Of a DNA stretch of 64,000 nucleotides, positions 13,522-32,805 are shown one piece after another. How positions within the stretch are numbered: position 1 is the first letter of the stretch; each line of letters opens with the position of its first letter. Location of the stretch: contig CP030759.1 of NCBI GenBank assembly GCA_003290465.1, positions 1,703,144-1,767,143 on the forward strand. The letters run 5' to 3'. The notes below the pieces were generated by a model. It saw only the letters and a program-made list of their open reading frames with translations. It was not told the origin of the DNA and ran no database searches. Both the position numbers and the translations under genes were made by a program. This stretch comes from Candidatus Sumerlaea chitinivorans. Lineage in GTDB: Bacteria > Sumerlaeota > Sumerlaeia > Sumerlaeales > Sumerlaeaceae.

Positions 13522-14862
13522 TTGAAACCCATCTTACGATCCATTCTTGTGTGCCTTTCGCTCGTTTCGGCGCTTTACGACCCTCCAAACAGGGCTTGGG
13601 GCAGTGAGAAACCCGAAACGTCAGCACCACCGACACGCCAAGTGTCGGGTGACGAGGTTCCCGATTTTATTTCCCCTGAGGAATGGCGGCGCTTATCCCG
13701 AGAAGACCGCGCGAGGCGAAGCCAGCGGCTGCTTCTCAAACGGATTGAGCCGGAGGGCGTGGGAAAGCCGGATCGCCTCGCCCTCTACATCGAGCGATTT
13801 GCCGACATTGTAATTTTCGATCGCCGGCTCGCGGTTTTCCACGTCGAAACCACAAGCGCCCAACAAAACCCTATGGCGATTTCGCTTCGTGGAGAAGTAA
13901 CTGAAAAACGGTATAAGCGCGGGATCGAGCAAATCCTCAGTGGGCTGGGCTTTGAAATCGTACGCAACGAGATTGTGGTATTGCCGACCATGCCGGAACC
14001 CCAGAGGTATGCTGTGGCGACGACCACCGCGGCCTCCCTACGTCGGGAGCCTCGCGGCGATGCGGAACAGGTGAATTCTGTCGCGTTAGGCGGTCCACTG
14101 CGTCTGCTCCGGCCAGCACGCTCGGAAGATATTACGACCAGAACCTATGGGCGGCGCGCAGGCAATCGGCGCGAACCGGACGGCCCTGTGACAAGACCGG
14201 ATGAATGGTTCCTTGCGCAGAGCAGCGAAGGATATGTCGGGTTTGTGCACAAAAAAGACGTGCGTTTTACTGAGGATTTTCGAGCTCCACAGGCATATTT
14301 GGATCGGCCGACCACACTGACATTGCCCAACGGGCGAAAAATCGTCGCACCGTGCGGCGCATCGCTTTATCGAGGCGTAGACGGCAAATGGCGGGTGGGT
14401 GGAGTGGATGTTGAGCTTCCACACGACACGCTCTCGGCCCCCGGCCGCGATGTTCGGCTTACCTCTCAGACACTCGTCGAACGAGCTCAACCGCTGCTGG
14501 GAACGCAATACGTTTGGGGAGGAGTGACCGAAGAAGGAATTGATTGTTCCGGTTTTACGCAGTTTCTTTTCAAAACTTACGGCATCGTCCTGCCGCGCGA
14601 CGCTGAAGAGCAAGCAATCGTTGGGCAGATTGTTGCATTCGGACAGGATGTGGTGCGCACGGCCCAACCCGGAGATTTGATTTTCTTCATGAATGAACAT
14701 GGCAAAGTAAACCATGTCGCGATCTCGCTGGGTGGGGACCGCATCCTACACTCGTCAGGGCGCAACGTGCACTTTGCCTCGCTGCTCGGTCAATCCGAGT
14801 CGAACGAAGAACGCCTACTGGATCGCGTGTTGTGGGCACGCCGAGTGCTCTTGCAAAAGTAA
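13522..14862 (+). CDS. Exported SH3 / NlpC-P60 cysteine peptidase
   Basis: 446 residues from a TTG start. The hydrophobic N-terminus (about residues 4-18) looks like a signal peptide. The middle (about 150-300) looks like one or two SH3b-like cell-wall domains (VATTTAASLRREP, GYVGFVHKKDVRF). The C-terminal NlpC/P60 domain has TQYVWGGVTEEGIDCSG with Cys about 342, His about 398 in NHVAISLGG, and a third polar residue in HSSGRN. Family members cut peptidoglycan stem peptides, usually gamma-D-Glu-diamino-acid bonds. Likely periplasmic wall remodelling. Residues 60-150 are unassigned. Same direction as era, 19 bases downstream. Confidence 0.88.
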   Translation: MKPILRSILVCLSLVSALYDPPNRAWGSEKPETSAPPTRQVSGDEVPDFISPEEWRRLSREDRARRSQRLLLKRIEPEGVGKPDRLALYIERFADIVIFDRRLAVFHVETTSAQQNPMAISLRGEVTEKRYKRGIEQILSGLGFEIVRNEIVVLPTMPEPQRYAVATTTAASLRREPRGDAEQVNSVALGGPLRLLRPARSEDITTRTYGRRAGNRREPDGPVTRPDEWFLAQSSEGYVGFVHKKDVRFTEDFRAPQAYLDRPTTLTLPNGRKIVAPCGASLYRGVDGKWRVGGVDVELPHDTLSAPGRDVRLTSQTLVERAQPLLGTQYVWGGVTEEGIDCSGFTQFLFKTYGIVLPRDAEEQAIVGQIVAFGQDVVRTAQPGDLIFFMNEHGKVNHVAISLGGDRILHSSGRNVHFASLLGQSESNEERLLDRVLWARRVLLQK

Positions 14863-14954
14863 CCGTGATTGAGGCGATTGCCTGCCCCGCTTCGTGAACC
14901 GCGCGCAGTTGTTGGTCGAGGCGTGGGAGGCGGTAAAGTAAACGGAAGGACACC

Positions 14955-15611
14955 ATGGAGGAGCCAACGTTAGTCATCTCCGAGCTCTACCTGTCGATAC
15001 AGGGAGAAAGTACGTGGGCTGGGCTCCCCTGCACGTTCATTCGTCTTACCGGCTGCCCACTGCGCTGCTCTTACTGCGATACGGAGTACGCTTTCTTTGG
15101 CGGGCAGCGCATGGTCCTCTCGCGGATTTTGAGCCAAGTTCACGAACTTGGGTGTCCACTCGTAGAAGTCACCGGTGGCGAGCCCCTCGCTCAGCGCGAA
15201 TGCATTACTCTGCTGCATGCCCTTCTGGAGCAGGGGTACACGGTCCTGCTCGAAACCAGTGGGGCTTATTCGCTTCGCGAGGTGCCGACCGAGGTCCACC
15301 GGATCGTGGATCTGAAGTGCCCCTCGTCAGGCGAGATGCACCGGAACTGCTGGGAGAATATCTCGCTTCTGACTTTACGCGACGAGGTAAAATTTGTCGT
15401 TGGGACGCGCGAGGATTATGAGTGGGCCCAGGATCAAATCCACCAACACAGACTTTTTGATCGGTGTGGGGCAGTGCTCTTCTCTCCTGTCTGGGGGCAA
15501 TTAGCTCCGAGAGAGCTCGCCTCGTGGCTGCTTGCGGATCACCTCTTTGCGGCGCGTCTGCAAATTCAGCTCCACAAAGTAATCTGGCCAACTGAGTCGC
15601 GCGGCGTCTGA
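14955..15611 (+). CDS. queE: 7-carboxy-7-deazaguanine synthase QueE
   Basis: Radical SAM enzyme that rearranges 6-carboxy-tetrahydropterin into 7-carboxy-7-deazaguanine, on the path to preQ0 and queuosine. Seen: SIQGESTWAG at the start, and a CxxxCxxC cluster as C34, C38, C41 in GCPLRCSYCDTEYAF that would hold the 4Fe-4S. VEVTGGEPLAQ and LLETSG are further family motifs. Length of 218 residues is normal. ATG 14955 has GGAAGGA about 5 bases upstream. No other queuosine genes are in the window. Its TGA is immediately followed by the stop of the convergent M42 gene with no gap. Confidence 0.94.
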   Translation: MEEPTLVISELYLSIQGESTWAGLPCTFIRLTGCPLRCSYCDTEYAFFGGQRMVLSRILSQVHELGCPLVEVTGGEPLAQRECITLLHALLEQGYTVLLETSGAYSLREVPTEVHRIVDLKCPSSGEMHRNCWENISLLTLRDEVKFVVGTREDYEWAQDQIHQHRLFDRCGAVLFSPVWGQLAPRELASWLLADHLFAARLQIQLHKVIWPTESRGV

Positions 15612-16712
15612 TTACCCATTTTGTGCACTCGCAAGGAAACGCGGCATCTCCCATACGGTCTTCTCGAGCAGCGCATAGGTGTGGGCGAAGTCCTCGAGGC
15701 TCATCAGACTCACGGACGAGTGTATGTAGCGACATGGCACGCTGACGATCGCTGTCGGCACACCACCGCGGGTTGTGTGGATTCGAGCGGCATCGCTTCC
15801 CCCGAAGATCGGGCGCTTATGCTGCCAAGGGATGCCAGCATGATCGGCAACTTCTTCAATAAAGCGCACGAGGCGGGGGGTGCAGTGGGTGTTGCGATCC
15901 ATGATCGTGAGAGCGGGGCCACCCCCAATTCGGGAGGGGCACCGTGCTTCGGGCACGCCGGGTACATCCGCCGCCACCGTGCCCTCCAAGACCAGCGCAA
16001 CGTCGGGTGCAATGCGATACGCCGCGGCAAGGGCTCCTCGAGCGCCAATCTCTTCAAAGGTTGAGAACAGTCCCACGACGTGGATCGGTAAACGGGGCTC
16101 GGAGGCGAGTCGGCGTAAGAGAAGAATGAGAAGGGCACACCCCACGCGATCGTCAAATGCCTTTCCCGTCACATAGGGTGGTAACAACCGCTGGAAGGGC
16201 TGCCAAACAACGCCGCTGTCACCGATGCGAAGGCCAGTCGCGTCGACCTCCGCACGGCTGCGCGCCCCAATGTCGATGAAAAGCGCTTCGGCAGAATAAG
16301 GCTTCTTGCGGTCTTCGTCGCGCTGAATGTGCGGAGGCGGGGTTCCAATCACTCCGTCAATGAACTTGCCCTCCCGCGTGCGAAGCTGCACACGCTGACC
16401 CGGCAGCAGCCGCTCATCCCATCCGCCCACCAGCGCAAACCTAAGAGCACCGTCCGTTTCTACATGGGCGATAACTAAGCCAATCTCGTCCATGTGTGCG
16501 TCGAGCAAAAGGGTTGGCGCGGAATCGGTGGACGCATTGACCACAGCAACCAAGTTGCCCAGCGCGTCGACACTGAGTTCATCCACCTGACCGCGAAGGT
16601 GCCGCTCAACGCAGGTCCTCACATCGTCTTCAAAGCCGCTCACTCCGTGGCAGCACGTGAGTTCCTGAAGAAGTTCGATTACATACTCGGGGTCAGGGAA
16701 AGTACCGCTCAT
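15612..16712 (-). CDS. M42 family metallo-aminopeptidase
   Basis: 366 residues. Members are dinuclear (Zn/Co) cytoplasmic aminopeptidases, often annotated glutamyl aminopeptidase or endoglucanase CelM, that form large tetrahedral particles and trim peptides. Seen metal and active-site motifs: LLLDAHMDEIG, GKAFDDRVGCAL, FSTFEEIGARGA, LEGTVAADVPG and SVPCRYIHSSVS. All expected ligands appear present. A GAGG lies about 9 bases before ATG 16712. Divergent from the membrane protein at 16801, with an AT-rich gap of 88 bases that probably holds both promoters. Exact peptide specificity cannot be read. Confidence 0.92.
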   Translation of the reverse strand: MSGTFPDPEYVIELLQELTCCHGVSGFEDDVRTCVERHLRGQVDELSVDALGNLVAVVNASTDSAPTLLLDAHMDEIGLVIAHVETDGALRFALVGGWDERLLPGQRVQLRTREGKFIDGVIGTPPPHIQRDEDRKKPYSAEALFIDIGARSRAEVDATGLRIGDSGVVWQPFQRLLPPYVTGKAFDDRVGCALLILLLRRLASEPRLPIHVVGLFSTFEEIGARGALAAAYRIAPDVALVLEGTVAADVPGVPEARCPSRIGGGPALTIMDRNTHCTPRLVRFIEEVADHAGIPWQHKRPIFGGSDAARIHTTRGGVPTAIVSVPCRYIHSSVSLMSLEDFAHTYALLEKTVWEMPRFLASAQNG

Positions 16713-16800
16713 AGGTTACGCCTCATTGTGTATTGATCTATAATTACTCGCTATAAAGTGGCACGCTTGACTTCTCGCGCTTTCACAGAATGGTACGGAC

Positions 16801-18696
16801 ATGCGCACGCAAGAGATACGTTTGTCAATTCGGCTTTCGCACTTAGAGCTCTTTGCTGTCGGCGCAACTTTTGTGGTGGCGCTCCTCCCCCCCAGCATTC
16901 CGCGGTGTGGACTCGCTCTTTTTATCAGTGGCCTTAGTGTCGCACCATTATTTCGGAGAAGCTACCGCCTGACCGAGCTGTTCGGTGTGTCACTGGCGAT
17001 TTCTTTATTGGGATGGTCCTTATTGAGTGTGGGGTTGTTGCCGCTACGGATGGGAGCATGGCTCCCTTGGTGGCCAGTCGGCTTGGCCGCTCTCGGCTAC
17101 GGGCTCACCGCAAAATCGCCAAAACGTCTAAGCATCACGGTTGACTGGGTGGAGACCGCTGCCTGGATGACCGCGCTTCTCGCCTTGGTCCCCATCAGCG
17201 CCGTGTACGGGGTCAATGGCCCCCGGCAAGACCCAGAAGGACCTGTCTGGTACTTGCGGAAGTGGATCCAACAGGATGGCCTCTACTTTATCGCATTGGT
17301 GCAAGAGGCGATCGAGCGGTTGGCGTATCCTGACGAAAACCCGTTTGCAGCCGGGTTACGCAACTATTATCCATCCCTACTTCACTGCGGGTTCGCTGGC
17401 CTTGTGCTCACAAGCGGCAAGAACGCCCCCACCGCCCTGTGGCAGCTGTGGCCGTGGGTCTACGTGGGACACATCTTGCTGCTTGTCCACACGCTTGCCC
17501 GCTCCATGCGTTTGCTGCGAAAATGGACTGGGCTCGCGGCGTCTGTCGCGGTTTGCGTCTTTATTGCGCTGCGTCTGGATTATTTCGTTTATCCGCATAC
17601 CCAAGGCATGGTGTTTGGCCTATTGTTTTTCGTCCTTTGGCTCATGAATCAGGGGTTGTGGCTTCGGCGCTGGGTCGCGCGTGGAACTGTGGCTCTGTTC
17701 ACCCTTCTTATCGCATGGATGCACACGGTAAGCACGACAGCGATCTGGGCGGCCCTTGTTGGGTTCGGGGCCGAAAAGCTGCGTAAGAAACAGTGGCGCC
17801 AAGCGTTCGGGTTTTTGGGCTTTGCTGCCATCGTTGGCATTTTGGCTCTGGCAATTGGCAAGGCCCCCTATCGAAGTGAGGCAGGTTGGACATTCGACTT
17901 GCGGTCGTACCAGTTCTTCATGGGATACGTCCTTCCCCACCTACCGCTTTATTTCGTGGGACTGGGTGTACTGGCAGTTGGGCAAGCCCCGTGGCGGTGG
18001 CGTATCGCAAGTGTGGTGTTGTGCCTGTTGGGCGTGGTTTATACCGTTGCTGGATTTAATCGTCCCGAAGTGTTTGCTCGCTTCTATGCGATCTTCAATG
18101 CTCAGCGTTTCCCGTATTTGTCGTTTCTCTTTTTTGTTCCCGTCCTTTCCCGAAACATACGCGTGATCAAGTTCGGTCTTCCGGCGCTTGTCGCCGCCGC
18201 CATCCTGAATCCCAACCCCTACACCCTCCAGTGTGAGTCGTTGGTTTTCGGCAAAGCGCTTGTTCTCCCGCCTGAGCAACTCGAAGCCTTCGAATACATC
18301 CGCCAGCATACGCCTCCACGGGCACGCTTTATCACAAATTTAGAGCACTGGGGCTTAACGGCGTTTACAGGTCGTCCCCAGTTTGTCCACGGTCTCGTCA
18401 TGGCTTTCGGGTTCAATTCGTTACCGGAGCCACAGATTCAAAAGCTTCTCCAAGTTAACGAGGCCTTCTTTACCACGTACGATGCCAAAGCACGGGCAGC
18501 ACTTCTGGAAAAGGTTGGGATTCGGTACGTGCTCGTGCGAGGCACGTGGGAGTCGGATGGCGAGCTTGCGAAATGGATTGTCCAGTTTCTGCCTTCGGGG
18601 CAATCGAGAATTGTCCAGCGTTGGGGAGGCCTTGTGCTCATCGAATGGCTTGGGAATTTGTCCGCTGAACGGAAGTATTTGGATTCCTTCGAATGA
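16801..18696 (+). CDS. Large polytopic membrane protein, GT-C-like
   Basis: 631 residues with about 12 hydrophobic segments up to residue 480 and a soluble C-terminal domain of about 150 residues. That domain (EAFEYIRQHTPPRARFITN, then VGIRYVLVRG) resembles the extracytoplasmic part of YfhO/DUF2298-like proteins. The first outer loop has NGPRQDPEGPVWYLRKW, and NYYPSLLHCG follows the next segments. I do not recognise a named family; a GT-C-like glycosyltransferase is an inference from topology. Its stop overlaps the MutT start as ATGA, so translation is likely coupled. Confidence 0.65.
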   Translation: MRTQEIRLSIRLSHLELFAVGATFVVALLPPSIPRCGLALFISGLSVAPLFRRSYRLTELFGVSLAISLLGWSLLSVGLLPLRMGAWLPWWPVGLAALGYGLTAKSPKRLSITVDWVETAAWMTALLALVPISAVYGVNGPRQDPEGPVWYLRKWIQQDGLYFIALVQEAIERLAYPDENPFAAGLRNYYPSLLHCGFAGLVLTSGKNAPTALWQLWPWVYVGHILLLVHTLARSMRLLRKWTGLAASVAVCVFIALRLDYFVYPHTQGMVFGLLFFVLWLMNQGLWLRRWVARGTVALFTLLIAWMHTVSTTAIWAALVGFGAEKLRKKQWRQAFGFLGFAAIVGILALAIGKAPYRSEAGWTFDLRSYQFFMGYVLPHLPLYFVGLGVLAVGQAPWRWRIASVVLCLLGVVYTVAGFNRPEVFARFYAIFNAQRFPYLSFLFFVPVLSRNIRVIKFGLPALVAAAILNPNPYTLQCESLVFGKALVLPPEQLEAFEYIRQHTPPRARFITNLEHWGLTAFTGRPQFVHGLVMAFGFNSLPEPQIQKLLQVNEAFFTTYDAKARAALLEKVGIRYVLVRGTWESDGELAKWIVQFLPSGQSRIVQRWGGLVLIEWLGNLSAERKYLDSFE

Positions 18697-19145
18697 CAGA
18701 CGAGCAAACAAAACCTGTTGTAAAAGTGGTGGCGGGCATTCTTTGTCGCGACCAAAAGGTGCTTTTGGCCCGGCGGCCTGCGGGAGATCCGCTGGCTGGG
18801 TTTTGGGAATTCCCCGGAGGAAAAGTCGAGCCGGGTGAGACTCCGCAACGCGCGCTGGAACGGGAGCTTGATGAAGAATTTGGGGTTAAGGTCCGGGCGG
18901 GCGACTTTTTGGCCTCACGCCTGCACTCCTATCCAGACCGGACGATTGAACTCGTCGTTTATTGGGCAACAATTGAAGGAGAAATTGCAGAGCTCAATGC
19001 ACATGATGACGTGGCATGGGTAAGCCCGACAGATCTGGAGCACTATCCTCTTGCCCCTGCTGACGAATTCTTAAAGGAGATTTTATTGGTCCGAAGCTGG
19101 GGTTCTGATGCTATTGCGGCAACACAAGAGGAGGCATCCTGTTGA
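18693..19145 (+). CDS. mutT: MutT-type NUDIX hydrolase (8-oxo-dGTP diphosphatase)
   Basis: 150 residues. An intact Nudix box runs GKVEPGETPQRALERELDEE then FGV, matching Gx5Ex7REUxEExGU; GFWEFPGGK just before it is typical of MutT. Predicted to clean 8-oxo-dGTP from the nucleotide pool and prevent transversions; another NTP substrate is possible. The ATG overlaps the stop of the upstream membrane protein by 4 bases, and its own stop overlaps the TTG start of the next gene. Its place between two envelope genes is odd and may simply be operon packing. Confidence 0.88.
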   Translation: MTDEQTKPVVKVVAGILCRDQKVLLARRPAGDPLAGFWEFPGGKVEPGETPQRALERELDEEFGVKVRAGDFLASRLHSYPDRTIELVVYWATIEGEIAELNAHDDVAWVSPTDLEHYPLAPADEFLKEILLVRSWGSDAIAATQEEASC

Positions 19146-20545
19146 AGTACCGAGCTCTACGATCACAATGTTCACGCTTGAGGGTAGGGTGGCTTTGCCT
19201 ATGTGTCGGCTTTCTTTGGGCTTACCTTGGGGTCAACGCTTGGGGTGCCATGAAGATCACCACCACGCTGACCTCGAGCACGGTGCTTGTTGTCCCGCGC
19301 CCTGAGAAGCGGCCGACCTCTGGAGTCCTTGTCGTTCGCAATGAAAGCCCAACGACCACCGTCAAAGTACGTATCTCATCCAGTAGTGTTCCGGACTTGA
19401 GTTCTTACGAGCGCATCCTTGCGGAGGTTCGTCGTCGCGCAGGCAATAATCGCTCCACCCACACCCTTGCTCGGGCTGCGTACAACCTGATCTCCGAGTT
19501 TCGCCCCTACAACTGGAGCTCCGCTGACATTAATGGAGAATGCGATGATCCCGTCAAACTCCTGAACGTATATGGCTACGGTTTGTGTGACAATGCTGCT
19601 CGGGCATTGGCAACGATCTGGCACGGGTTAGGGATTCCCGCCCAAGTTTGGGATCTGCGATGTCACGTGGTGCCGGAGTATTTTGTAGGAAAGGAATCGT
19701 TTGCGCTGGATCCCGACATGCGAGTCCATGGCTACATTGCAGGGACTTCGCTCACCATTCCCGCACGCGCGTACCATTCCCTAAGAAAGAATCTCCAACC
19801 CGCTGAAATAGAGGACCCGGTTGAGGCACTCATTAGGAGTCAGCGCCTCATGGCAGCTTTGGATCGCGTTTCGACACCCCCACGAGTTGCATTTTGGAAA
19901 CCTCAGGCAAAGCATGATGCCGCTCCTTCCCTGCGACCCGGTGAGGTCATGATCCGCTACCAAAACTCCGATTTAGGTTACTACGCACGGATCAATCCGG
20001 AGCCGCCCCCTGCCTACTCAAATGCCGTGTTTGTGTGGCAACGACGGCTGCCGCCGGAAGTCCCCACCGACGACGACGTAGATGCCGTGACGATTCGCTC
20101 GCGCCTCCCCTATGTTCTGCTTGGGGGATGGATTGATCTCGTGCCGGACAGCGTTTGGGAAATCCCGCCAACAGTCGAGGTCTCGTGTGAAAAACAGAAG
20201 CGCGTGCCCTGCCTCTTTGCGGGTGCTCTTTCAACAACGTCCACCCCAGCCTATCGCTATGCCCTGCCACCTGAAATCCAAGGTTCTTACGAGATTCAGG
20301 TTCATATTACGACCCAAGCAATCCACGCCGATACCTTGCCAGAAATGCATTACAAGCAGGTGCTCATCACTCAGTGCAGTCCTACGACATTCCCCATGTT
20401 GAGTCCGGGTGACGGCGAGGAAGACTTGTATGTTGAGCTGGATAGCGAGGGCCTTGTCACCGTATCTCTTACGGTTTCGACTGAGGACGAGCTGGTGGAC
20501 GACGTCGTTGTGCTGAAGGACGACGAGAACGCGCCTGAACTGTGA
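19142..20545 (+). CDS. Exported transglutaminase-like protein
   Basis: 467 residues from a TTG overlapping the mutT stop (TTGA), with AGAGGAGG about 8 bases upstream, which supports this start. Residues about 12-37 form a signal peptide ending near AWGA. A transglutaminase-like Cys-His-Asp triad is seen: C149 in GYGLCDNAAR, H175 in CHVVPEY, D190 in FALDPDMR. The spacing fits the family, whose members hydrolyse or cross-link amide bonds. The C-terminal half is beta-rich and unassigned, with an acidic tail (DDVVVLKDDENAP). The substrate is unknown; a wall or surface protein is a guess. Third gene of an overlapping trio. Confidence 0.72.
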   Translation: MKYRALRSQCSRLRVGWLCLCVGFLWAYLGVNAWGAMKITTTLTSSTVLVVPRPEKRPTSGVLVVRNESPTTTVKVRISSSSVPDLSSYERILAEVRRRAGNNRSTHTLARAAYNLISEFRPYNWSSADINGECDDPVKLLNVYGYGLCDNAARALATIWHGLGIPAQVWDLRCHVVPEYFVGKESFALDPDMRVHGYIAGTSLTIPARAYHSLRKNLQPAEIEDPVEALIRSQRLMAALDRVSTPPRVAFWKPQAKHDAAPSLRPGEVMIRYQNSDLGYYARINPEPPPAYSNAVFVWQRRLPPEVPTDDDVDAVTIRSRLPYVLLGGWIDLVPDSVWEIPPTVEVSCEKQKRVPCLFAGALSTTSTPAYRYALPPEIQGSYEIQVHITTQAIHADTLPEMHYKQVLITQCSPTTFPMLSPGDGEEDLYVELDSEGLVTVSLTVSTEDELVDDVVVLKDDENAPEL

Positions 20546-20582
20546 GGCGTCCTGCATTGGAAGGTGCATGCCATGAACGTGG

Positions 20583-22130
20583 CTACGTGTCGCCGTCACG
20601 CGTAGACAAGGCACATTCCTCGAGTTCCAGAAAACCGTAGGGTAAGGCGTCCGCAACTTCACTCGCCAGCACCCCTCGCTCGCCGATTGCGCGAGCGCAC
20701 CGAATCGCTGCGCGCAGGTGCACCTGCGCCCCCAAGAGCGCGGCTTGCCATGGCGCCATCCCTTGCGCAAGAAGCGATGCAATCAAGCCCGTGAGCACGT
20801 CGCCCGTGCCGCCTTTGGCCAAGGCGGAGGTCGCCCCCGGAGAAATCCAAACTTGTCCATCTGGCCGAGCGATGAGCGAATCCGCACCTTTGAGCAAAAC
20901 CGTTGCCCCTGTTCGGGTCGCTAATGAGCGCACAGCCTCGATGCGGGCAGCCTGCACCTCGGCCGTGGTTTTGCCCAAAAGACGAGCCATTTCCCCCGGA
21001 TGAGGCGTGAGGACAATTGATTCGCGAAGCTGAGGCAGCTCTTCGGCGAGACAAGTCAGAGCGTCAGCGTCCACTACCATGGGAATGGTACTTTGGCGGA
21101 TCAATTCTCGCACAAGCCGCTGCTGCCGAACTGTGGTTCCTAAACCCGGCCCAATTGCCAGCGCATCGAGCTCCTGCGTACGTCTAAGGATCTCGCCGTG
21201 CGCTTCTTCTGTGAGATAACCTTTGGGGTCTTCCGAGACGATGACGGTGACAGCTTCGGGAATCGCCATCTTGTATACAGGGTTTAGGGCCGCAGTGGTA
21301 AAAAGGTACGCCAACCCACAGCCTGCCCGAAGTGCGGCCCGCGTGGAGAGGATTGCGGCCCCGGCAAACGGCGGAGAGCCAGCAATGATTCCAACTTTTC
21401 CAAAGGTGCCCTTGTGACCAATCGCAGGTCGATGGGGAATCCATGTCCCAAGCCGCGAAGGCGGTTCGTAATTCAGCTCAAGCGCCTCCGAATCCAATAA
21501 CTCGGCAGGGAAATTGATCCTCTCGACAATGAGCTCGCCGACATGCTCCGATCCCGGATAGGTGAGCAGCGCAAGTTTGGGGCATCCAATCGTCACCGTG
21601 AGGTCGGCTGATATCACCGTTCCAAGCGTTTCTCCCGGATGAAGCTCGCGGACTCCTGAGGGAACATCGACAGCAACCACAATTCCGGGAGCCCGTGAAA
21701 TCTCTAAAACAACTGGCTCCCATTCTTGGCGAACAGGCCCCTTCACCCCAGTCCCAAGAAGAGCATCCACCACAACGTCGGCTTGGGCCAGCAAGTCCGG
21801 TAGAGGATCTGGGCCAACGATTGGCACTCCGGCCTGCACTGCACTCGCATAAGCACGGGAGGCGGCCCCCCGCAATTCAGACGGGGACACCACTGCAACG
21901 ACTGTGACATCTGCTTTTGCGAGATGGAGCTCGCGGGCCACCACGTAGCCATCCCCTGCGTTATTGCCTTTCCCACACACGACGCAAACGCGCTCAGGAG
22001 AGAACCGATCGCGGATCACGCGGGCCACGGCACGGCCGGCTTCGTTCATTAGGCAGTCTTCGGAGATGCCAAACTCTGCTTGGGCACGCCGATCAATTTC
22101 GCTCATCTGGGCAGCTGTGACGACCTTCAT
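20583..22130 (-). CDS. nnrD: Bifunctional NAD(P)H-hydrate epimerase / ADP-dependent dehydratase
   Basis: Repairs hydrated NADH and NADPH. The N-terminal YjeF_N epimerase domain (about 1-215) has SEIDRRAQAEFGISEDCLMNE-type sequence and CGKGNNAGDGYVVAREL. The C-terminal kinase-like dehydratase domain has AIGPGLGTT, LTPHPGEMARLLG, LLKGADSLIA and KGGTGDVLTG, its catalytic core. From ATG 22130 it is 515 residues, the normal fused length; the frame stays open to 22355, but that extension is not family-like. Convergent with the transglutaminase-like gene and divergent from an NrtR-like NUDIX gene. Confidence 0.94.
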   Translation of the reverse strand: MKVVTAAQMSEIDRRAQAEFGISEDCLMNEAGRAVARVIRDRFSPERVCVVCGKGNNAGDGYVVARELHLAKADVTVVAVVSPSELRGAASRAYASAVQAGVPIVGPDPLPDLLAQADVVVDALLGTGVKGPVRQEWEPVVLEISRAPGIVVAVDVPSGVRELHPGETLGTVISADLTVTIGCPKLALLTYPGSEHVGELIVERINFPAELLDSEALELNYEPPSRLGTWIPHRPAIGHKGTFGKVGIIAGSPPFAGAAILSTRAALRAGCGLAYLFTTAALNPVYKMAIPEAVTVIVSEDPKGYLTEEAHGEILRRTQELDALAIGPGLGTTVRQQRLVRELIRQSTIPMVVDADALTCLAEELPQLRESIVLTPHPGEMARLLGKTTAEVQAARIEAVRSLATRTGATVLLKGADSLIARPDGQVWISPGATSALAKGGTGDVLTGLIASLLAQGMAPWQAALLGAQVHLRAAIRCARAIGERGVLASEVADALPYGFLELEECALSTRDGDT

Positions 22131-22277
22131 AGTGCTTCGAAAATCAGAGACCGGTAGGGGCGTTTGCAAGCCCTTTGGTAGGCTCAGGATTAGGCTTTTG
22201 GATCGCACCAACGGGACCCCAGCGTTCCATTCGCACGGCCGGGTGCGGCTCAAGACAGGCTCGCCCCCAGGCACATA

Positions 22278-22294
22278 CTTCCAACGGATGGAAG
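22278..22294. promoter_or_regulatory. Inverted repeat CTTCCA-N5-TGGAAG, candidate operator
   Basis: Perfect 6-bp dyad with a 5-base spacer in the divergent gap between nnrD and the NrtR-like gene, 13 bases before a perfect 10-bp palindrome (22307-22316). Position and symmetry suit a dimeric repressor; assignment to NrtR is inference. Confidence 0.35.
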
Positions 22295-22306
22295 CTGACA
22301 TTTTTG

Positions 22307-22316
22307 CTTTGCAAAG
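22307..22316. repeat. 10-bp palindrome CTTTGCAAAG
   Basis: Perfect palindrome in the nnrD / NUDIX divergent gap; identical to the one at 9891-9900. AT-rich sequence follows (GATAATAAAAATTT), which could be part of a promoter. Confidence 0.4.
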
Positions 22317-22410
22317 GTTCGATAATAAAAATTTCTCAATTGCGAGACTTGACAAGGCGATTGCAGTTGTGGCGTCAGTCCAATGTTGTGACTATTTGAG
22401 AGGACGGCAA

Positions 22411-23121
22411 GTGGCACGGAAAAAGGTATCTGAGACAAAGGACGAGCAGGGTTCTTCCCTGCAGCGAATCATTGTCACCACCGACGTAGTGCTGTTCACG
22501 TTCGAGGATCAACAGCTGAAAGTGCTGCTGGTGCGCCGGGCAACGCCACCGTTTGAGGGCATGTGGGCATTTCCCGGGGGACTCCTCGAAGAGAACGAGG
22601 AGCTCGAGGAATGTGCGGCGCGTGAGCTCAAGGAAGAGACCGGTATCACGGGGGCGCGCTTGCGCCAATTTGGGGCCGTCGGCACCGTGGGTCGCGATCC
22701 CCGTGGGCGCTCGGTCACCGTGGTATACTATGGCGCAGTCCCAGCGGAGGTTTCTAAGCCCCAACCAGCGGACGAAGTGGATGAGGCCCAGTTCCACGCA
22801 GTGAAACGTCGCCCAAAGCTCGCTTTTGATCACGAACAAATACTGAAGACCATCCTCAACCAGTTGCGCAGCGATATCACCCGCAGCGAGATTCTCTTCG
22901 ACTTCTTCCGTTCCGTGATCCCCTCGGCAGACATGCTTGCCCTCATCGAGCAAATATGGGGCACAACAGCCGACCGGCGACGTTGGGAAGGGTGGATGCA
23001 TAGCCTGCCTTTCCTCCAGGAAATGAGCGGCGGGGAATGTTTTCGCCTCGACCGCACCGAGATGCGTCGCTGGATGCGAAATCACACACTCGACGTTGCC
23101 TCGCTATTCCCAAGCCTCTAA
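22411..23121 (+). CDS. NUDIX hydrolase with winged-helix-like C-terminus, NrtR-like
   Basis: 236 residues from GTG 22411, which has GAGAGG about 9 bases upstream; an ATG at 22288 in the same frame is a longer alternative. The N-terminal NUDIX domain has IVTTDVVLFTFEDQQLKVLLV and a complete Nudix box GLLEENEELEECAAREL then KEETGI. The C-terminal about 90 residues (FDHEQILKTILNQLR, ADMLALIEQIWG, DRRRWEGWM) match the pattern of the winged-helix domain of NrtR, the ADP-ribose-sensing regulator of NAD synthesis. The intact box means hydrolysis may be retained, unlike many NrtRs. The divergent NAD(P)HX-repair gene fits. A plain ADP-ribose pyrophosphatase is the alternative. Confidence 0.75.
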   Translation: MARKKVSETKDEQGSSLQRIIVTTDVVLFTFEDQQLKVLLVRRATPPFEGMWAFPGGLLEENEELEECAARELKEETGITGARLRQFGAVGTVGRDPRGRSVTVVYYGAVPAEVSKPQPADEVDEAQFHAVKRRPKLAFDHEQILKTILNQLRSDITRSEILFDFFRSVIPSADMLALIEQIWGTTADRRRWEGWMHSLPFLQEMSGGECFRLDRTEMRRWMRNHTLDVASLFPSL

Positions 23122-23436
23122 ACCCCTAAACAAGATTAGCTGTGCCAAAACCGTGTGGGTGGGGCGGGGGTGAGGTGCTATTCCGCTTGAGGCATTGGGC
23201 GTGCACACGTGGTTTTTGTCCCGGCACAGTGACTCGAAGGGGGCTATGCAAAACTGGCAATAGGGTTCCTTAATTTCCTCACCGAATTGGCTCCGTGTGA
23301 CTGCGGACTCAACGGTCCACGATCTTTGTTCCTTTCCCCAAAGAACTGTGCCTCCCGGGCGAAAGATGGGATTTCGCGTTGACCTTCTCGGGGCGAAGAC
23401 CGGTATTAGCTGACTGAAATTTGAGATTGGCAATTC
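23122..23436. other. Intergenic stretch without recognised gene
   Basis: 315 bases between the NUDIX gene and folC, both on the plus strand. A G-rich run (GTGGGTGGGGCGGGGGTGAGG) lies near 23155-23175. No tRNA, terminator or convincing promoter is seen. A minus-strand frame here encodes a few cysteines but runs into folC and lacks family features. Confidence 0.5.
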
Positions 23437-25029
23437 GTGAGCCCAATTCGTACATATTCGGAAGCAGAAGCGTTCCTCAGAGAATTCATCAACTACGAGC
23501 AACTCGCAGGTGGAAGCGGAGGTTTTCGTTACGACACGAAAGCCTTTGATCTTGAACGATTCCGCGCGCTGCTCGCCAAGTTAGGCTCTCCGCAGTTCTG
23601 TGCCCCTGTTTTCCACGTTGCAGGCACGAAAGGCAAAGGTTCCACATGTGCTATTCTTGCCGAGATACTCAGGGCGTCGGGCTACCGAGTGGGCCTGTTC
23701 ACGTCCCCGCATATTGAAAGCTTCCGGGAACGCATTCAGGTGAACGGGATCCCCATCTCAGAAACCGACTTCTGCGATGTCCTCGACTACGTTGCGAGGG
23801 TTCGCCTGAAAGATCGCAGTGGAACCGAGGGCGGGTTTCGCACCGTTTTTGAGCTCCTAACCGCAAGTGCATTTCTTTACTTTTCCCGAACGCAGTGCGA
23901 CGTTATGGTGGTGGAAACTGGTCTGGGGGGCCGGTTAGATGCAACGAATGTGTTTTCGAACCCACTGGCCGATAAACGACGTTACTTTGCCCTCACGAAT
24001 ATCATTACATCAATCGGTTTAGACCATACGGAAATTCTCGGTCCGACAATCGAGAAGATTGCTTGGGAAAAGGCTGGCATCATTCATGAGAACTCCATGG
24101 TGATTGTCTCACCACAATCTTGTCAATACGGATCTGCGGAGGCTGCCCATTCTGTCAGCTCGGAGGACCGTTCAAAAGACTCGAGTGCGGAGAGTTTTGA
24201 GCATTGGGCCTCGACGATTCGCGAGGTTATAACCCAACGGGCGGGACAAGTTGGAGCGGTCGGGCCTTATTTCACCGAAGATTTTCTTCAGTGGAGCGAT
24301 CTTGAGATCGGGGAATACACTTACCAAGGCTCTCCGCCGGCACGACGTTGCCAAATCAAATTGCGGCCGGGAGTTGAGGATGTCATTCCACAGAGTGGCC
24401 TTCTTGATGCTGTAAGAACTGGACTTGACATTAGACCGACCCTTCTTGGGGGTCATCAGGAGTTGAACCTCGCCGGAGCGATTGCTGCACTGCTCTTCGC
24501 AGCAGGTCGGGGAGGCATTCAAGTTACTCCAGAGGCTGTGTTGCGTGGTGCCGAACACGTGCAATGGCCGGGCCGGTTTGAGGTGCTCTGTTCTTCACCT
24601 CCAGTAATCGTGGACGGGGCCCATTGTGAACTGTCCACGCACGCGTTAGTACAGACGTACTGTGACCTGTGGAAAGGTCGTCCGGCTCGCATTATTTTGG
24701 GGGTCATGCGCGACAAGAACCTTATGACAATAGCTGCCGCCTTGAGACGAAAAGACTTTGCGATTGCCAAGATCTACACATGCACGCCGTCAAGCCCACG
24801 GGCACGCTCTGCATCGGAGACCGCTGAGATTTGCGCTCAGGTACTCAGGCGTCCCGTGGCAGCTTACCCAACGATTGGGGACGCGTTGCGGGCGGCTTGG
24901 TCTGAGCGCGAGAAGAAAGAAGCGATACTCTGCTTCGGTTCGCTCTATCTCGTTGGGCCGGCCCGAAGGGCACTCCGAAATTTGCTCGCGGAGGATTCTG
25001 AGCAACACGCGTCAAGCCCTGAGAGATGA
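23437..25029 (+). CDS. folC: Folylpolyglutamate synthase / dihydrofolate synthase FolC
   Basis: Mur-ligase-like ATPase that adds glutamates to (dihydro)folate. Seen: YDTKAFDLERFRALLAKLG, P-loop VAGTKGKGSTCA, TSPHIESFRERIQVNG, and VVETGLGGRLDATN. The C-terminal domain includes PPVIVDGAHCELS, where the family usually has DGAHNP, and GVMRDKN. At 530 residues it is longer than the usual 420-450, with extra sequence around residues 220-300 (SSEDRSKDSSAES and beyond). GTG start at 23437. No other folate genes nearby. The enlarged middle and the Cys in place of Asn after DGAH deserve note, but the family is clear. Confidence 0.92.
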   Translation: MSPIRTYSEAEAFLREFINYEQLAGGSGGFRYDTKAFDLERFRALLAKLGSPQFCAPVFHVAGTKGKGSTCAILAEILRASGYRVGLFTSPHIESFRERIQVNGIPISETDFCDVLDYVARVRLKDRSGTEGGFRTVFELLTASAFLYFSRTQCDVMVVETGLGGRLDATNVFSNPLADKRRYFALTNIITSIGLDHTEILGPTIEKIAWEKAGIIHENSMVIVSPQSCQYGSAEAAHSVSSEDRSKDSSAESFEHWASTIREVITQRAGQVGAVGPYFTEDFLQWSDLEIGEYTYQGSPPARRCQIKLRPGVEDVIPQSGLLDAVRTGLDIRPTLLGGHQELNLAGAIAALLFAAGRGGIQVTPEAVLRGAEHVQWPGRFEVLCSSPPVIVDGAHCELSTHALVQTYCDLWKGRPARIILGVMRDKNLMTIAAALRRKDFAIAKIYTCTPSSPRARSASETAEICAQVLRRPVAAYPTIGDALRAAWSEREKKEAILCFGSLYLVGPARRALRNLLAEDSEQHASSPER

Positions 25030-25416
25030 GCTTAAAAAGGCCTCTGGCGATACAAGACACAGTAGCTCGAGCATCTCCGGCCTCGCTATCGCATGGACGT
25101 GAATCGCCGAGGCGTCGAAAGCATCCCATGCAAAGATTGGTAAATGTTTATACTTGTCTTTCAATCAAGACAAGACAATGTCCCACCATTTATCTGGGAA
25201 CGTGGAAAGCGGCAGAGGGGGGCGCAAGATCACATGCAGGACAGAGCTATCTGATAACAGTCGCAATTTGGTCGCCGCGGGGGCACGCTCCGACCCTGTC
25301 CAAAAGCTCGCGCGTTTCTCCGCAGGAGGGGCGCCGTAGCTTGTTCGCGCTATCCCGACGTTTCGTCCCAGCCCGATCTTGGGTGGAAACGCCTTCGGAA
25401 AAACATCCCAGAGAGA
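25030..25416. other. Intergenic stretch between convergent folC and lepA
   Basis: 387 bases between two convergent stops. It holds one perfect hairpin (25153-25174) and no tRNA or credible gene; an open frame of 139 codons across it has no recognisable features and runs into lepA. Confidence 0.5.
25153..25174. terminator. Perfect 8-bp hairpin CTTGTCTT / AAGACAAG, possible bidirectional terminator
   Basis: An 8-bp perfect stem with a 6-base loop (TCAATC) between convergent folC and lepA. Location suits a terminator, but no U-run follows on either strand and the stem is not GC-rich, so it may be another structure. Confidence 0.35.
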
Positions 25417-27216
25417 TTAAGTCTCAACACGCAAGACAGCCATGAACGCCTCTTGGGGAATCTCGACCTTCCCGATTTGTTTCATGCGCTTCTTCCCCTC
25501 TTTTTGCTTTTCGAGGAGTTTGCGCTTGCGGGTGATGTCGCCGCCGTAACACTTGGCCGTGACGTTCTTACGCAGAGCCTTTACGGTTTCACGGGCGAGG
25601 ATTTTTCCGCCTATGGCTGCTTGGATTGCGACGTCGAACAGCTGACGTGGAACGAGTTCGCGGAGTTTTCCTACGAGCGCCCGCCCACGGTGATAAGCTT
25701 GGTCGCGATGGACAATCACTGACAGGGCGTCCACCACCTCGCCATTGATGAGAATGTCGAGCTTGACCATGTCCGCGGGGCGGTAATCCGCCAACTCATA
25801 GTCGAACGACGCATAGCCTTGGGAGACGGACTTGAGCTTGTCGTAGAAATCGAGGATGACCTCCCCCAACGGCAACTCGTATTCCAAGAGCACCCGACTC
25901 TCAGTAATGTAGTGCATTTGACGCTGGACCCCGCGCTTGTTTTGGCACAGAGTCATAATCGCGCCGAGGTACTGGGGAGGAGTGATGATTCGGGCCACAA
26001 TGTAAGGTTCTTCTATTGACGCAATTTGACCCGGGTCGGGCATCTTCACCGGATTGTCCACATACACGACTTCTCCGTTGCGTTTCGTGATGCGGTAGAT
26101 TACGCTTGGCGCAGTCGTAAGAAGGTGCATATTGAATTCGCGCTCCAAGCGCTCCTGCACAATTTCCATGTGAAGCAATCCCAAGAACCCACAACGGAAG
26201 CCAAAGCCCAGAGCGGCCGACGTTTCCGGCTCAAAAAAGAAACTCGAATCGTTTAGCTTGAGCTTCTCGATGGCGTCCTTGAGGTCATCATAGTCATCTG
26301 AATTGATCGGATACAGGCCTGCGAAGACGACCGGGCGCGCTTCCTTGTAGCCTGGCAATGGTTCGGCGGCAGGACGCCGGGCGTGGGTGATGGTGTCGCC
26401 GACACGAACGTTCGCAACTTCCTTGATATTTGCGATGACGTAGCCGACTTCACCCGCGCTAAGTTCTTCGCACTGACACATTTTCGGGGTAAAGAACCCG
26501 ACTTCGTCCACCTCGTAGTCGGCCTGGGTGGACATCACTCGGATGCGGTCGCCCTTGCGCAAGACCCCATCCACGACGCGCACGTAAGTGACAACACCAC
26601 GGAAACTGTCGTATTTCGAATCAAAGATTAGAGCGCGAAGCGGAGCATTCCGGTCACCCTTCGGGTGCGGGATGCGCTTTACCACCGCCTCGAGAATCTC
26701 ATCTGTCCCAATGCCAAGTTTTGCACTTGCCAAAATTGCATTGGAGGCGTCGATGCCAATGACCTGTTCGATTTGCTGCTTGACAAGTTCTGGGTCTGCC
26801 CCAGGAAGATCAATCTTGTTGATCACGGGGATAATCTCAAGGTTCCCATCAATGGCAAGATAAACGTTTGCCAATGTTTGGGCCTCGACACCTTGCACAG
26901 CGTCCACAACCAGCAAGGCTCCCTCGCAGGCGGCGAGGCTTCTCGAGACCTCGTAAGTGAAGTCCACGTGGCCGGGAGTGTCAATGAGGTTCAGCTCATA
27001 GGTCTTGCCATCCGACGCGGTGTAGGGCAAGCGCACAGCTTGGGCTTTGATCGTGATGCCACGCTCGCGCTCCAGATCCATGGAATCCAAGAGCTGGTCA
27101 CGCATTTCGCGGGCGCTGACTACCTGAGTGCGCTCAATGAGGCGGTCAGCCAACGTGCTCTTGCCATGATCAATGTGCGCAATGATGCAGAAATTTCGGA
27201 TAAGTGTCTGATCCAT
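25417..27216 (-). CDS. lepA: Elongation factor 4 (LepA)
   Basis: Ribosome-associated GTPase that can back-translocate stalled ribosomes and affects initiation and 30S assembly. Seen: G1 [24 protein letters not shown]3 DTPGHVDF, G4 NKIDLPGA, and the LepA-specific C-terminal domain ([21 protein letters not shown]). Length of 599 residues is standard and all domains are in order. ATG 27216 has no strong ribosome site. Same strand as glgP, whose stop lies 206 bases upstream. Confidence 0.97.
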
Positions 27217-27323
27217 GAGCCGCGCATAAATACGAGGGCGGAACGCTCCTCATTCGGTAAATCCCGACCACAGACGATGCTTTGAGTTCAGCTTGGCCAA
27301 CACTCTGATTAAACAAGCTCGCA

Positions 27324-27377
27324 GACCGGGTTTTGTTCTACGGAGCATTGCTTGCCCTGCGTGGCAACCGTCCGGTC
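27324..27377 (-). other. Nested inverted repeats in the glgP-lepA gap
   Basis: GACCGG at 27324-27329 pairs with CCGGTC at 27372-27377; inside it TTGCC (27352-27356) pairs with GGCAA (27363-27367) across a 6-base loop. A transcript running from glgP into lepA could fold here. No U-run; function unknown. Confidence 0.3.
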
Positions 27378-27422
27378 GCACACAGGAGAGTGACTCAGAG
27401 GCCAAACAAATCTTAGTGAGGT

Positions 27423-29957
27423 CTACTCCACTGGCCGAATCTTCCAGATGTCCTCTGCATACTCGCGAATGGTGCGGTCGCTGGAGAATTTCCCGATTCT
27501 CGCAACGTTCAGAATCGCTTTTCGGGCCCAGACCTCGCGCTGGAGGAATTCCTGCCCTGCCTGCTCGCTCGCCCGCAGATAGCTTTCGAAATCGGCGAGC
27601 AAGAAGTAGCGATCGCCCTGATTCAAGAGTGCATTGAAGATCCAGTGGAACATGGGCGCATTCCGACGGAAAAGCTTATCCGTGTGGAACACATCCATCA
27701 CACGCCGGATCGCTGGGCTCCGGTGGTAGTAATCCCACGGATTGTAGGAGTGCTCTCTTCGCATCCGTTCAAGTTCTTCGGTGCGATGACCGAAGATGAA
27801 GAGGTTCTCTTCCCCGACTTCTTTGGCAATTTCGATGTTTCCGCCGTCATAGGTGCACAGAGTGAGCGCGCCGTTCATTGCAAACTTCATGTTGCTGGTG
27901 CCACAGGCCTCCATGCCGGCGGTTGAAATCTGTTCGCTGAGGTCAGCTGCTGGAATGATCTTCTCCGCCAGCGACACACGGTAATCGGGTAGGAAAACGA
28001 CCCGAATTCTGCCACGGACGCGTGGATCGTTGTTGATGATGTGGGCGAGCTCGTTGATGAGCTTAATGATTTGCTTCGCTGCCCAATAGCCGGGGGCCGC
28101 TTTTCCACCAAAAATAAACGTGCGCGGTACAGGCGGCTCAACCCGATCCTCGACGAGCGACAGGTATTCGTGAATCACCCGCATGGCCATGAGCAGTTGG
28201 CGCTTATACTCGTGAATGCGCTTGACCATGACATCGAATTGCGAGGCGGGATCCACGTGAATCCCTGTTGTTTCCAAAATCACACGGGCCAAACGCTCCT
28301 TGTTGACCCGCTTCACGGAGCGGAACCGCTGTTGGAACGCTGGATCATCTGCATAGGCCTCGATCTTGCGCAGCTCTTCGAGATTCGTGACCCACCCCTC
28401 TCCAATGGTTTGGGTGAGCAGGTCGGCCAAACCCGGATTCGCTTTTAGCAACCATCGGCGTGGGGTCACGCCATTCGTCTTATTGGAGAACTTGTGAGGC
28501 CAGAGCTCGTAGAAGTCGGGCACCAAGTGCGTCTTCACAAGCTCGGAGTGGAGTTCGGCAACGCCATTGACCGCATGGCTCCCCACGATCGCAAGGTTGG
28601 TCATTCGCACGAATTTTTTGCCCTCGTGCTCTTCGATAATGCTCATACGGTCGTGGCGGCTTGGATCTGTCGGCCACCGCCGCGCCACTTGGGCCAAGAA
28701 ACGTCGATTAATTTCGTGAATGATCAGGACGTGGCGGGGCAAAACTTTCTGAAGTAGATCCTCCGACCACTTCTCCAATGCCTCGGGCATCAAGGTATGG
28801 TTGGTGTAGCCAAAGGTCGCCTCTGTGATTTCCCACGCCTTCTCCCACGACAGGTGATTTTCATCCATCAGGAGGCGCATAAGCTCCACGATGGCCAAGG
28901 TGGGGTGGGTATCATTGAGCTGGATGGCTACGCGGTCTGGGAAGAGATCGAAAGTGGCGTGCTGACGCTGGTAGCGGCGCACGATGTCTCGGATTGCGCA
29001 AGCGACAAAGAAATACTCCTGAAGCAAACGTAGCTCGCGTCCAGCATCCACGGCGTCCGAAGGATAGAGAACCTTCGAGATGTTTTCGGTTTCAATCTTC
29101 TTGGCGACAGCATTCATGTAGTCGCCTTCGTTGAAGCGTTGGAAATCGAACTCTTCTGTAGCCTTTGCGGTGTACAGGCGTAGGAAGTTGACCGTGTGGC
29201 CGCCGTAACCCACAATGGGCATATCGCTTGGCACCCCGATCACGTGGTGGCAGTCCGTCCAGACGGGGCGGAGATGCCCGCTTCGGTCAGGAGCATGGGT
29301 CACTTGACCGTAGAGTGGGACGATGACGGCTTCGTCGGAGCGGTCGATGAGCCACGGGCTTGGGCGGGTTCGCCACGCATCGGGCTGCTCAACCTGAAAC
29401 CCATCCTTAATCTCTTGGCGAAAGAGGCCATACTCGTAGTTGATGCCATAGCCAAAGCCAGGCATCTTGAGGGTAGCCAAGGAATCAAGGAAGCAGGCTG
29501 CTAAGCGTCCCAAGCCGCCGTTACCGAGAGCGGCGTCGCGTTCCACCTCCCGAAGTTCTTCTAAATCAACTCCCAAACTTTCCAAAGCCAGTCGGCAGGT
29601 CTCATAGAGGTTTAAATTAGTGAGGTTATTTCCAAGGGAGCGCCCAACAAGGAATTCCATGGAAAGGTAATAGACGCGTTTTGCGTCGGCCTTTTGGTAG
29701 CGGCGCTCGGTCTCCAGCATGCGCTCCACAAGCACGTCTCGCACCGCCAACGACACCGCCATGAGCATGTTTTCGTTGCTCAGGGTGGCCCACTCTTTGG
29801 CTAACGAGTAACGGACATGGCGTTTGACTTGCTCGAGGAAATTCTCGGCGGTGTCCACCTCGTAGGGGGTGACGTAGCCAATATCGATTGGTTCGTGGGA
29901 ATCTTGGTCAGAGAGATCCACCTGAGGTGTCTCAATCTGTTCGTTAACTTGTTCCAT
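27423..29957 (-). CDS. glgP: Glycogen phosphorylase
   Basis: PLP enzyme that releases glucose-1-phosphate from glycogen or maltodextrin. 844 residues, the usual size. Seen: VYYLSMEFLVGRSLGNNL, DAALGNGGLGRLAACFLDS, GYGINYEYGLF, and EACGTSNMKFAMNGAL containing the PLP-binding Lys. All core motifs are intact. ATG 29957 has only a weak ribosome site. No other glycogen genes lie in the window, so carbon storage is inferred from this gene alone. Sits between pyrC and lepA on the minus strand. Confidence 0.97.
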   Translation of the reverse strand: MEQVNEQIETPQVDLSDQDSHEPIDIGYVTPYEVDTAENFLEQVKRHVRYSLAKEWATLSNENMLMAVSLAVRDVLVERMLETERRYQKADAKRVYYLSMEFLVGRSLGNNLTNLNLYETCRLALESLGVDLEELREVERDAALGNGGLGRLAACFLDSLATLKMPGFGYGINYEYGLFRQEIKDGFQVEQPDAWRTRPSPWLIDRSDEAVIVPLYGQVTHAPDRSGHLRPVWTDCHHVIGVPSDMPIVGYGGHTVNFLRLYTAKATEEFDFQRFNEGDYMNAVAKKIETENISKVLYPSDAVDAGRELRLLQEYFFVACAIRDIVRRYQRQHATFDLFPDRVAIQLNDTHPTLAIVELMRLLMDENHLSWEKAWEITEATFGYTNHTLMPEALEKWSEDLLQKVLPRHVLIIHEINRRFLAQVARRWPTDPSRHDRMSIIEEHEGKKFVRMTNLAIVGSHAVNGVAELHSELVKTHLVPDFYELWPHKFSNKTNGVTPRRWLLKANPGLADLLTQTIGEGWVTNLEELRKIEAYADDPAFQQRFRSVKRVNKERLARVILETTGIHVDPASQFDVMVKRIHEYKRQLLMAMRVIHEYLSLVEDRVEPPVPRTFIFGGKAAPGYWAAKQIIKLINELAHIINNDPRVRGRIRVVFLPDYRVSLAEKIIPAADLSEQISTAGMEACGTSNMKFAMNGALTLCTYDGGNIEIAKEVGEENLFIFGHRTEELERMRREHSYNPWDYYHRSPAIRRVMDVFHTDKLFRRNAPMFHWIFNALLNQGDRYFLLADFESYLRASEQAGQEFLQREVWARKAILNVARIGKFSSDRTIREYAEDIWKIRPVE

Positions 29958-30066
29958 AGTCGCGCTTTCTTGGTGCTTCGAGTTTACGGGTTACACGCGA
30001 TAAAATTAGTGGCATGGCAAGGTGAGAATTCAACAGTTTTTAGATCGGTCCAACTCGCCCGGTCCG

Positions 30067-31368: not shown

Positions 31369-31455
31369 GTCGAGATGATGAGCCTGCCACGTGATAACCA
31401 ATCCGCAACACAAAATTACGATGGGAAAGTGAAAATCTGAAAAACCCCGGCGTGA

Positions 31456-31488
31456 ACGCGAAAACTGCGGATTTGCTTACTTTCGCGT
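31456..31488 (-). promoter_or_regulatory. Inverted repeat ACGCGAAA / TTTCGCGT upstream of pyrC
   Basis: Perfect 8-bp arms (31456-31463 and 31481-31488) with a 17-base spacer, about 90 bases before the pyrC start. Could be an operator or a leader hairpin. No PyrR or known pyrimidine signal is recognised. Confidence 0.4.
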
Positions 31489-31553
31489 ACTGACAACAGT
31501 AGGCGGAAGGAATTGCGGTAGGCGCCTGGCAAAAGCCCACACGTTCAAATGAC

Positions 31554-31790
31554 TCATTTCTGGAAAGGCGGTTTAGGTGTACCACTTAGCAGACGCGCAT
31601 GTTTGAGCCAGTCCATTCGGTAGAGGGGGCAGCGATCTGTTGTGAGGTACTGGGCCTTGTCGGGATGGCTGCACAAAGCACGCCCCAACTCTTTCTCGAG
31701 GTACCCTTCAAAGTAAATACAAGTTTCTAAGCAGCAACGCACCTTGAGTGGTTCCGGGCGTTTTGGAACATCGCGAAAAGTTCGGCTCAT
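31554..31790 (-). CDS. Small cysteine-rich protein, unknown
   Basis: 78 residues. I do not recognise the family. Cysteines at about 19, 20, 24, 40 and 54 occur as RCCLETCIYF, LCSHPDK and DRCPLYRMDW, suggesting a Zn- or Fe-S-binding knuckle with a conserved-looking Trp. No signal peptide or membrane segment. It starts with ATG 31790 and lies upstream of pyrC on the same strand (185 bases), so co-transcription is possible. The patterned cysteines make chance coding unlikely, but that is judgement from one sequence. Confidence 0.6.
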   Translation of the reverse strand: MSRTFRDVPKRPEPLKVRCCLETCIYFEGYLEKELGRALCSHPDKAQYLTTDRCPLYRMDWLKHARLLSGTPKPPFQK

Positions 31791-32436: not shown

Positions 32437-32454
32437 CGCCAAGCGCTAATTGTC

Positions 32455-32470
32455 CCCCACTGGTGTGGGG
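32455..32470 (+). other. Hairpin CCCCAC-tggt-GTGGGG between rplU and rpmA
   Basis: Perfect 6-bp GC-rich stem with a 4-base loop in the 76-base gap. No U-run, so more likely an RNA-stability or attenuating hairpin than a full terminator. Confidence 0.4.
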
Positions 32471-32779: not shown

Positions 32780-32805
32780 ACGTACAAGTTTTGTAACGCA
32801 GTCGG

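Follow-up and report, generated by a model that had tools for sequence, protein, structure and literature searches.

An open reading frame for a Nudix protein with features of an NrtR-type regulator faces a gene for NAD(P)H-hydrate repair in the genome of Candidatus Sumerlaea chitinivorans. This raises two questions, namely whether the protein belongs to the NrtR type and whether the facing gene is its target. The window, i.e. the whole stretch of 64,000 nucleotides that was analyzed, comprises positions 1703144-1767143 of the 3.29-Mb single-contig genome. NrtR proteins are described as repressors whose DNA binding is suppressed by ADP-ribose, while the related AraR responds to L-arabinose and NdnR of C. 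glutamicum to NAD (PMC4666351, PMC6800001).

Gene layout and Nudix domain

The Nudix gene, here named nudR, is located at positions 22411..23121 of the plus strand and encodes 236 amino acids from a GTG start codon with a GAGGA sequence upstream. On the minus strand, the divergent nnr gene (20583..22130, ATG at 22130) encodes a fused NAD(P)H-hydrate epimerase/dehydratase of 515 amino acids. Its product matched both YjeF_N (PF03853) and Carb_kinase (PF01256) in Pfam and exceeded the cut-offs of the epimerase and dehydratase domain models (TIGR00197: 148.6, cut-off 88.6; TIGR00196: 217, cut-off 129.85). Its N-terminal sequence MKVVTAAQM is similar to the starts of its orthologs. Coordinates and domain matches thus agree with the first-pass annotation, which had described a Nudix gene divergent from a fused nnr across a 280-base gap (22131..22410). 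Downstream of nudR on the same strand, folC (23437..25029), coding for dihydrofolate/folylpolyglutamate synthase (TIGR01499: 308.2 bits, cut-off 162.65), follows after 315 bases. Beyond nnr lies a second, MutT-like Nudix gene (18693-19145), which overlaps by four bases with an ORF (19142-20545) whose product displayed a sub-threshold transglutaminase-core match and nothing else. An Rfam scan of positions 18000-27500 revealed a single match, which was under the gathering score.

The nudR protein is composed of a Nudix domain (approximately residues 20-150) and a C-terminal tail (approximately 155-236). Pfam PF00293 matched residues 25-145 with an E-value of 1.7e-23. The Nudix box, which had been described as intact, is indeed complete and reads G-x5-E-x7-REL-x-EE-x-GI. 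Six of the eight family orthologs exhibit the full pattern; the genomes G004 and G006 carry D for G after EET and EQ for EE, respectively. Other NrtR-type homologs compared here also possess intact boxes. The intact box is compatible with a protein that may both cleave and sense its ligand, and the prototypic NrtR is reported to have a dual role of this kind (PMC6800001). The best NCBIfam match of the nudR protein was the model of the ADP-ribose-responsive repressor NtrR (E 4.6e-26), which remained below cut-off. This narrow-sense NrtR model, NF050029, yielded 91.8 bits against a cut-off of 400, and a Pfam-positive NrtR from another genome of the class (G010) likewise stayed under it with 109.7 bits. 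In a phmmer search against the PDB, the match to S. oneidensis NrtR (3gz8, E 3.6e-23) was limited to the Nudix part (residues 19-150), whereas that to B. thetaiotaomicron AraR (5bs6, E 4.2e-20) covered residues 21-204 and reached into the tail.

The adjacent folC gene and the box kept in most orthologs would also suit an enzyme of folate synthesis, in which the Nudix domain serves as dihydroneopterin triphosphate pyrophosphatase (the FolQ/NudB role) and the tail in dimerisation or another role. Lactococcus lactis FolQ is described as a Nudix protein encoded within a fol cluster (PMC1971073). However, the corresponding diphosphatase model NF006961 (cut-off 103) scored only 27.7 bits, far less than the NtrR model. 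Moreover, a box glutamate is lost in the most distant ortholog, and the tail rather than the Nudix domain is the best-conserved part of the protein. We therefore regard an enzymatic role in folate synthesis as very improbable.

The C-terminal tail and its conservation

According to the first-pass annotation the protein has an NrtR-like C-terminus. A direct Pfam search did not detect it: among 39 class genomes searched with the NrtR_WHD model (PF21906), none of the eight family genomes, including the window's own, gave a match, and a single genome, G010, exceeded the cut-off. When five family proteins were scanned singly, the best E-value was 0.11 (G004 ortholog). Pfam AraR_C was not matched by the nudR protein, and a phmmer search of the PDB with the tail alone found no solved relative (best E 0.23).

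In contrast, profile-profile comparison supported the assignment. The tail aligned with a broad set of NrtR-type tails, which in part consists of homologs found using the nudR protein itself and not of Pfam-positive proteins, over 56 columns without gaps (P 1.2e-5, probability 81%); it scored 32.0, and the highest score among 100 column shuffles was 16.1. Limiting the comparison to Pfam-positive tails gave P 0.00062, a probability of 28% and a score of 24.1, and here none of 100 column shuffles exceeded 15.2. Furthermore, the tail aligns in register with the homolog tails.

Structure alignment of the full-length model pointed in the same direction. Residues 10-233 aligned to AraR (5deq_A, Z 18.6), residues 16-229 to 2fml_A (Z 19.5, rmsd 3.1 over 193 residues, 25% identity) and residues 20-191 to NrtR (3gz5/3gz6, Z about 17), the scores coming mainly from the Nudix domain and only residues 15-171 being spanned by many rows. 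The 2fml protein is a MutT/nudix family protein of Enterococcus faecalis, whose entry title gives no function. A Foldseek search with the model also supported an NrtR-like architecture. The tail itself was modelled with low confidence, with a pLDDT of about 46-60 and no wing strands in the full-length model and a pLDDT of 51.6 when modelled alone. Since the Z-scores are mostly borne by the Nudix domain and the tail model is weak, the winged helix rests on homology and not on the model. The NrtR-like C-terminus is thus upheld by profile-profile comparison and by the alignment to AraR, and the Pfam NrtR_WHD match is missing. The first-pass annotation had named a profile search that yields no winged helix as refuting its reading; this was the outcome of the direct Pfam search but not of the profile-profile comparison. 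Taken together, sequence comparison supports a tail that is a winged helix homologous to that of NrtR and AraR. With a Nudix domain and such a tail, the assignment of the nudR protein to the NrtR/AraR-type class in the broad sense is likewise supported.

Comparison with characterized members illustrates how divergent this protein is. S. oneidensis NrtR (3gz5/3gz6/3gz8) shares the combination of Nudix domain and C-terminal winged helix and 31-36% identity over the structure-aligned part; in contrast to it, the nudR tail misses PF21906, the protein stays below the NCBIfam NrtR-type cut-off, and the gene adjoins folC instead of an NAD gene. B. thetaiotaomicron AraR (5bs6, 5deq), an NrtR-family sugar regulator, resembles the nudR protein in nearly its entire model and in the sequence match into the tail. 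AraR is described as devoid of the Nudix catalytic residues (PMC4666351), whereas the nudR box is intact and AraR_C is not matched. DNA motifs and contact residues of the NrtR family are reported to differ strongly among lineages (PMC4666351), which fits a nudR tail that escapes one Pfam model. For annotation, this means that a single Pfam winged-helix model overlooks the nudR branch.

Orthologs of nudR are present in all seven other family genomes (57-80% identity), and named records matched at 74-79% identity belong to Candidatus Sumerlaeota. Outside the family, the listed matches, from 99 genomes, all stayed within 52% identity and ended no later than residue 212. Across the eight orthologs, 46 of 70 tail positions (155-224) are invariant compared with 50 of 131 Nudix positions (20-150), making the tail the best-conserved part of the protein. 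Even in the most distant ortholog, from G006, 53 of the 70 tail positions are identical to those of the window protein, compared with 67 of the 131 in the Nudix domain. This strong selection on the tail would fit DNA binding at a little-changed site. We conclude that nudR probably represents a divergent NrtR-type branch, seen among the genomes compared only in the window's family, the Sumerlaeaceae. The G006 gene itself (L048 9541-10416) combines the EE to EQ exchange in the box with a well-kept tail and a folC gene that is not adjacent.

Neighbouring genes and the shared gap

Given that NrtR relatives respond to ADP-ribose (PMC4666351, PMC6800001), the divergent arrangement could mean that the nudR protein acts within the 280 bases between the two genes to regulate nnr in response to this ligand. 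The neighbourhood of nudR was therefore compared in the seven relatives by searching for 13 window genes (13522 to 33362). All 13 were found in order in G001 and nine of the 13 on an 11.6-kb contig of G007; in G002-G005 folC was the only one of them around nudR, and none was found in G006. Although nnr is present as a single copy in all eight family genomes, it is divergent to nudR in three only (window, G001 and G007), which form one clade on the LepA tree (99/98). In the other five it lies elsewhere, in G002-G005 closely behind another ORF on the same strand.

Apart from nudR-folC, no neighbour pair of the block was kept at the loci compared in these five genomes. None of the other twelve block genes occurs within 10-12 kb around nnr, no other block gene within 9-12 kb around lepA, and none around the M42 peptidase gene in the two genomes examined, some of the stretches ending at contig edges (the nudR contig of G003 comprises 4.2 kb, and lepA of G005 is 1.5 kb from an end). 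In G002-G005 (L110-L113), nnr follows a gene for a similar P/A/R-rich protein. A grpE gene is located near nnr in the same four genomes and a carboxypeptidase-like gene in G002, G004 and G005, the family having been checked in G002 only in both cases.

The gene upstream of nudR varies. Apart from nnr in three genomes, we found a divergent gspE/pilB-like gene in G006, a same-strand glmM-like gene in G005, a same-strand amidase-like gene in G003, a divergent gene with weak similarity to beta-N-acetylglucosaminidase in G002 and the divergent gcvT-gcvH-gcvPA genes in G004. In the latter (L046 10550-13403), these one-carbon genes are separated from nudR-folC by about 117 bases. Between nudR and the preceding gene of G002 (L044 ~9410-9500), clusters of inverted ATGGAC/GTCCAT repeats were observed; similar repeats seem to recur within further ORFs of G002 (L112 8934-10562, L044 12103-12567).

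The gap between nnr and nudR contains the two symmetric elements listed in the first-pass annotation, a 17-bp dyad (CTTCCAACGGATGGAAG, 22278..22294) and a 10-bp palindrome (CTTTGCAAAG, 22307..22316). Both strings exist, but neither stands out from chance: an equally good dyad occurred in 121 of 200 and a perfect 10-bp palindrome in 452 of 2000 dinucleotide shuffles. Neither is conserved in the seven orthologous upstream regions, an outcome that the first-pass annotation had named as refuting its reading. Only two of 14 comparisons of the full strings, each with 100 mononucleotide shuffles, were marginal, both concerning the 17-mer (G005, 4/100; G007, 5/100), and its arms alone gave 42 and 36/100. 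An imperfect 22-bp palindrome at 22329-22350 was not conserved either, with one marginal match in G007 (5/100).

Control of nnr by the nudR protein, as the first-pass annotation had considered, is not borne out by these data. The adjacency is confined to one block-keeping clade and folC is the lasting neighbour, which makes such control highly unlikely; nnr is best explained as a chance neighbour of nudR in one clade. Among the matches listed for papers on NADHX, NADPHX or hydrate, NrtR was absent. A divergent pair in one genome can be a relic of local gene order.

The pairing of nudR with folC was found in four of the five genomes outside the clade and in seven of eight overall. Of the neighbour pairs in the block, it is the only one that was seen to persist in these five. 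The two genes are 36 bases apart in G002, 28 in G004 and about 43-125 in the others; the 315 bases in the window make co-transcription doubtful there. Six of the eight genomes have a single folC, which is linked to nudR in five of them, while G003 and G005 contain a second copy unlinked to nudR. In G006, an assembly of 66% completeness, folC is located ~220 kb from nudR on the same contig. The nudR-folC pairing is a new observation worth testing.

Probable promoter, candidate operators and possible targets

A -35-like TTGACA element of nudR is located at 22349..22354 of the plus strand, 62 bases before the start codon. The exact hexamer was found at -56 to -64 in six of the eight family genomes, a level reached in none of 2000 mononucleotide shuffles, and TTGACT at -62 in a seventh; G006 has neither. 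By consensus scan, no TATAAT-like partner was detected in the window. Since TTGACA is kept upstream of nudR whatever the upstream neighbour, nudR probably has its own promoter.

We searched for shared operators by palindrome sampling of the nudR, nadA and nnr upstream regions. The first run gave its nulls fewer restarts than the real regions, and its excess was not counted. In a second run with equal restarts and 12 nulls, scores above every null were obtained for nudR at widths 16, 20 and 21, for nadA at 21 and for the combined nudR and nadA regions at 20 and 21; nnr gave none. The nadA sites of this run in G003, G005 and G006 lay inside the end of the upstream coding gene (KEEK-stop). In a third run with equal restarts and 20 nulls, nudR beat all nulls at 16 and 21, and two of 20 reached its score at 20. 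The sampled nudR sites were mostly located on TTGAC or on the start codon. When the -35 element and its shorter side were cut away, and with them in most genomes the sequence from -35 to the start codon, the nudR signal was lost (6, 3 and 10 of 20 nulls reaching it). Beyond the -35-like element or the start codon, no clear palindromic operator was thus found in the eight nudR regions, and an operator may contain the TTGACA element.

The sampling also bears on the reading that the protein is an NAD-pathway NrtR acting on distant genes, for example nadA or nadE, in which case the folC linkage would be incidental. NAD regulators are among the closest solved or modelled relatives of the nudR protein, and the combined nudR and nadA regions exceeded all 12 nulls at two widths. 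In G010, of the same class, the Pfam-positive NrtR gene is located 3' of nadE in the same orientation (L118 5895-8486), the NAD linkage expected of NrtR, which indicates that the ordinary NAD-linked type is also present in this lineage. However, after nadA was restricted to non-coding sequence, 3, 4 and 0 of 20 nulls reached its score (in the last case 9.37 versus a null maximum of 9.36), and the combined signal with nudR disappeared (13, 3 and 2 of 20 nulls at widths 16, 20 and 21). In addition, no NAD gene was present among the nudR neighbours examined. A role in the NAD pathway appears rather unlikely, if less so than control of nnr.

In our judgement, nudR fairly probably encodes an NrtR-type regulator that is specific to the family and divergent in sequence; the gene would have a promoter of its own and point at folC, with nnr as a chance neighbour. 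The kind of regulator would be ordinary. By analogy to other NrtR-type proteins, we infer DNA binding, a ligand, autoregulation and nudR-folC co-transcription as follows. The Nudix domain would bind a ligand of the nucleoside-diphosphate type, whose hydrolysis the intact box may allow, and the C-terminal winged helix would bind DNA. Transcription of nudR would start at its own promoter and run in the direction of folC, the single neighbour that it has kept for long. Occupation of the Nudix cleft by the ligand would change the hold of the dimer on its operator, as in other NrtR-type proteins. The operator would most likely be situated at the nudR promoter, so that nudR and folC come under feedback control; distant genes may have operators as well.

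The link to folC, together with the gcv genes in one genome, suggests a target in folate or one-carbon metabolism. A literature search on NrtR, Nudix and folate returned no folate control by NrtR among the matches listed. The more specific proposal that the regulator shifted from NAD or sugar to folate and one-carbon metabolism, where it would control folC and, in G004, gcvT-gcvH-gcvPA and destroy its own signal through the intact box, we consider quite unlikely. If the folC link of this divergent regulator is functional, control by the NrtR superfamily would extend past NAD and pentose sugars, and the intact Nudix box would let one protein both sense and remove its signal.
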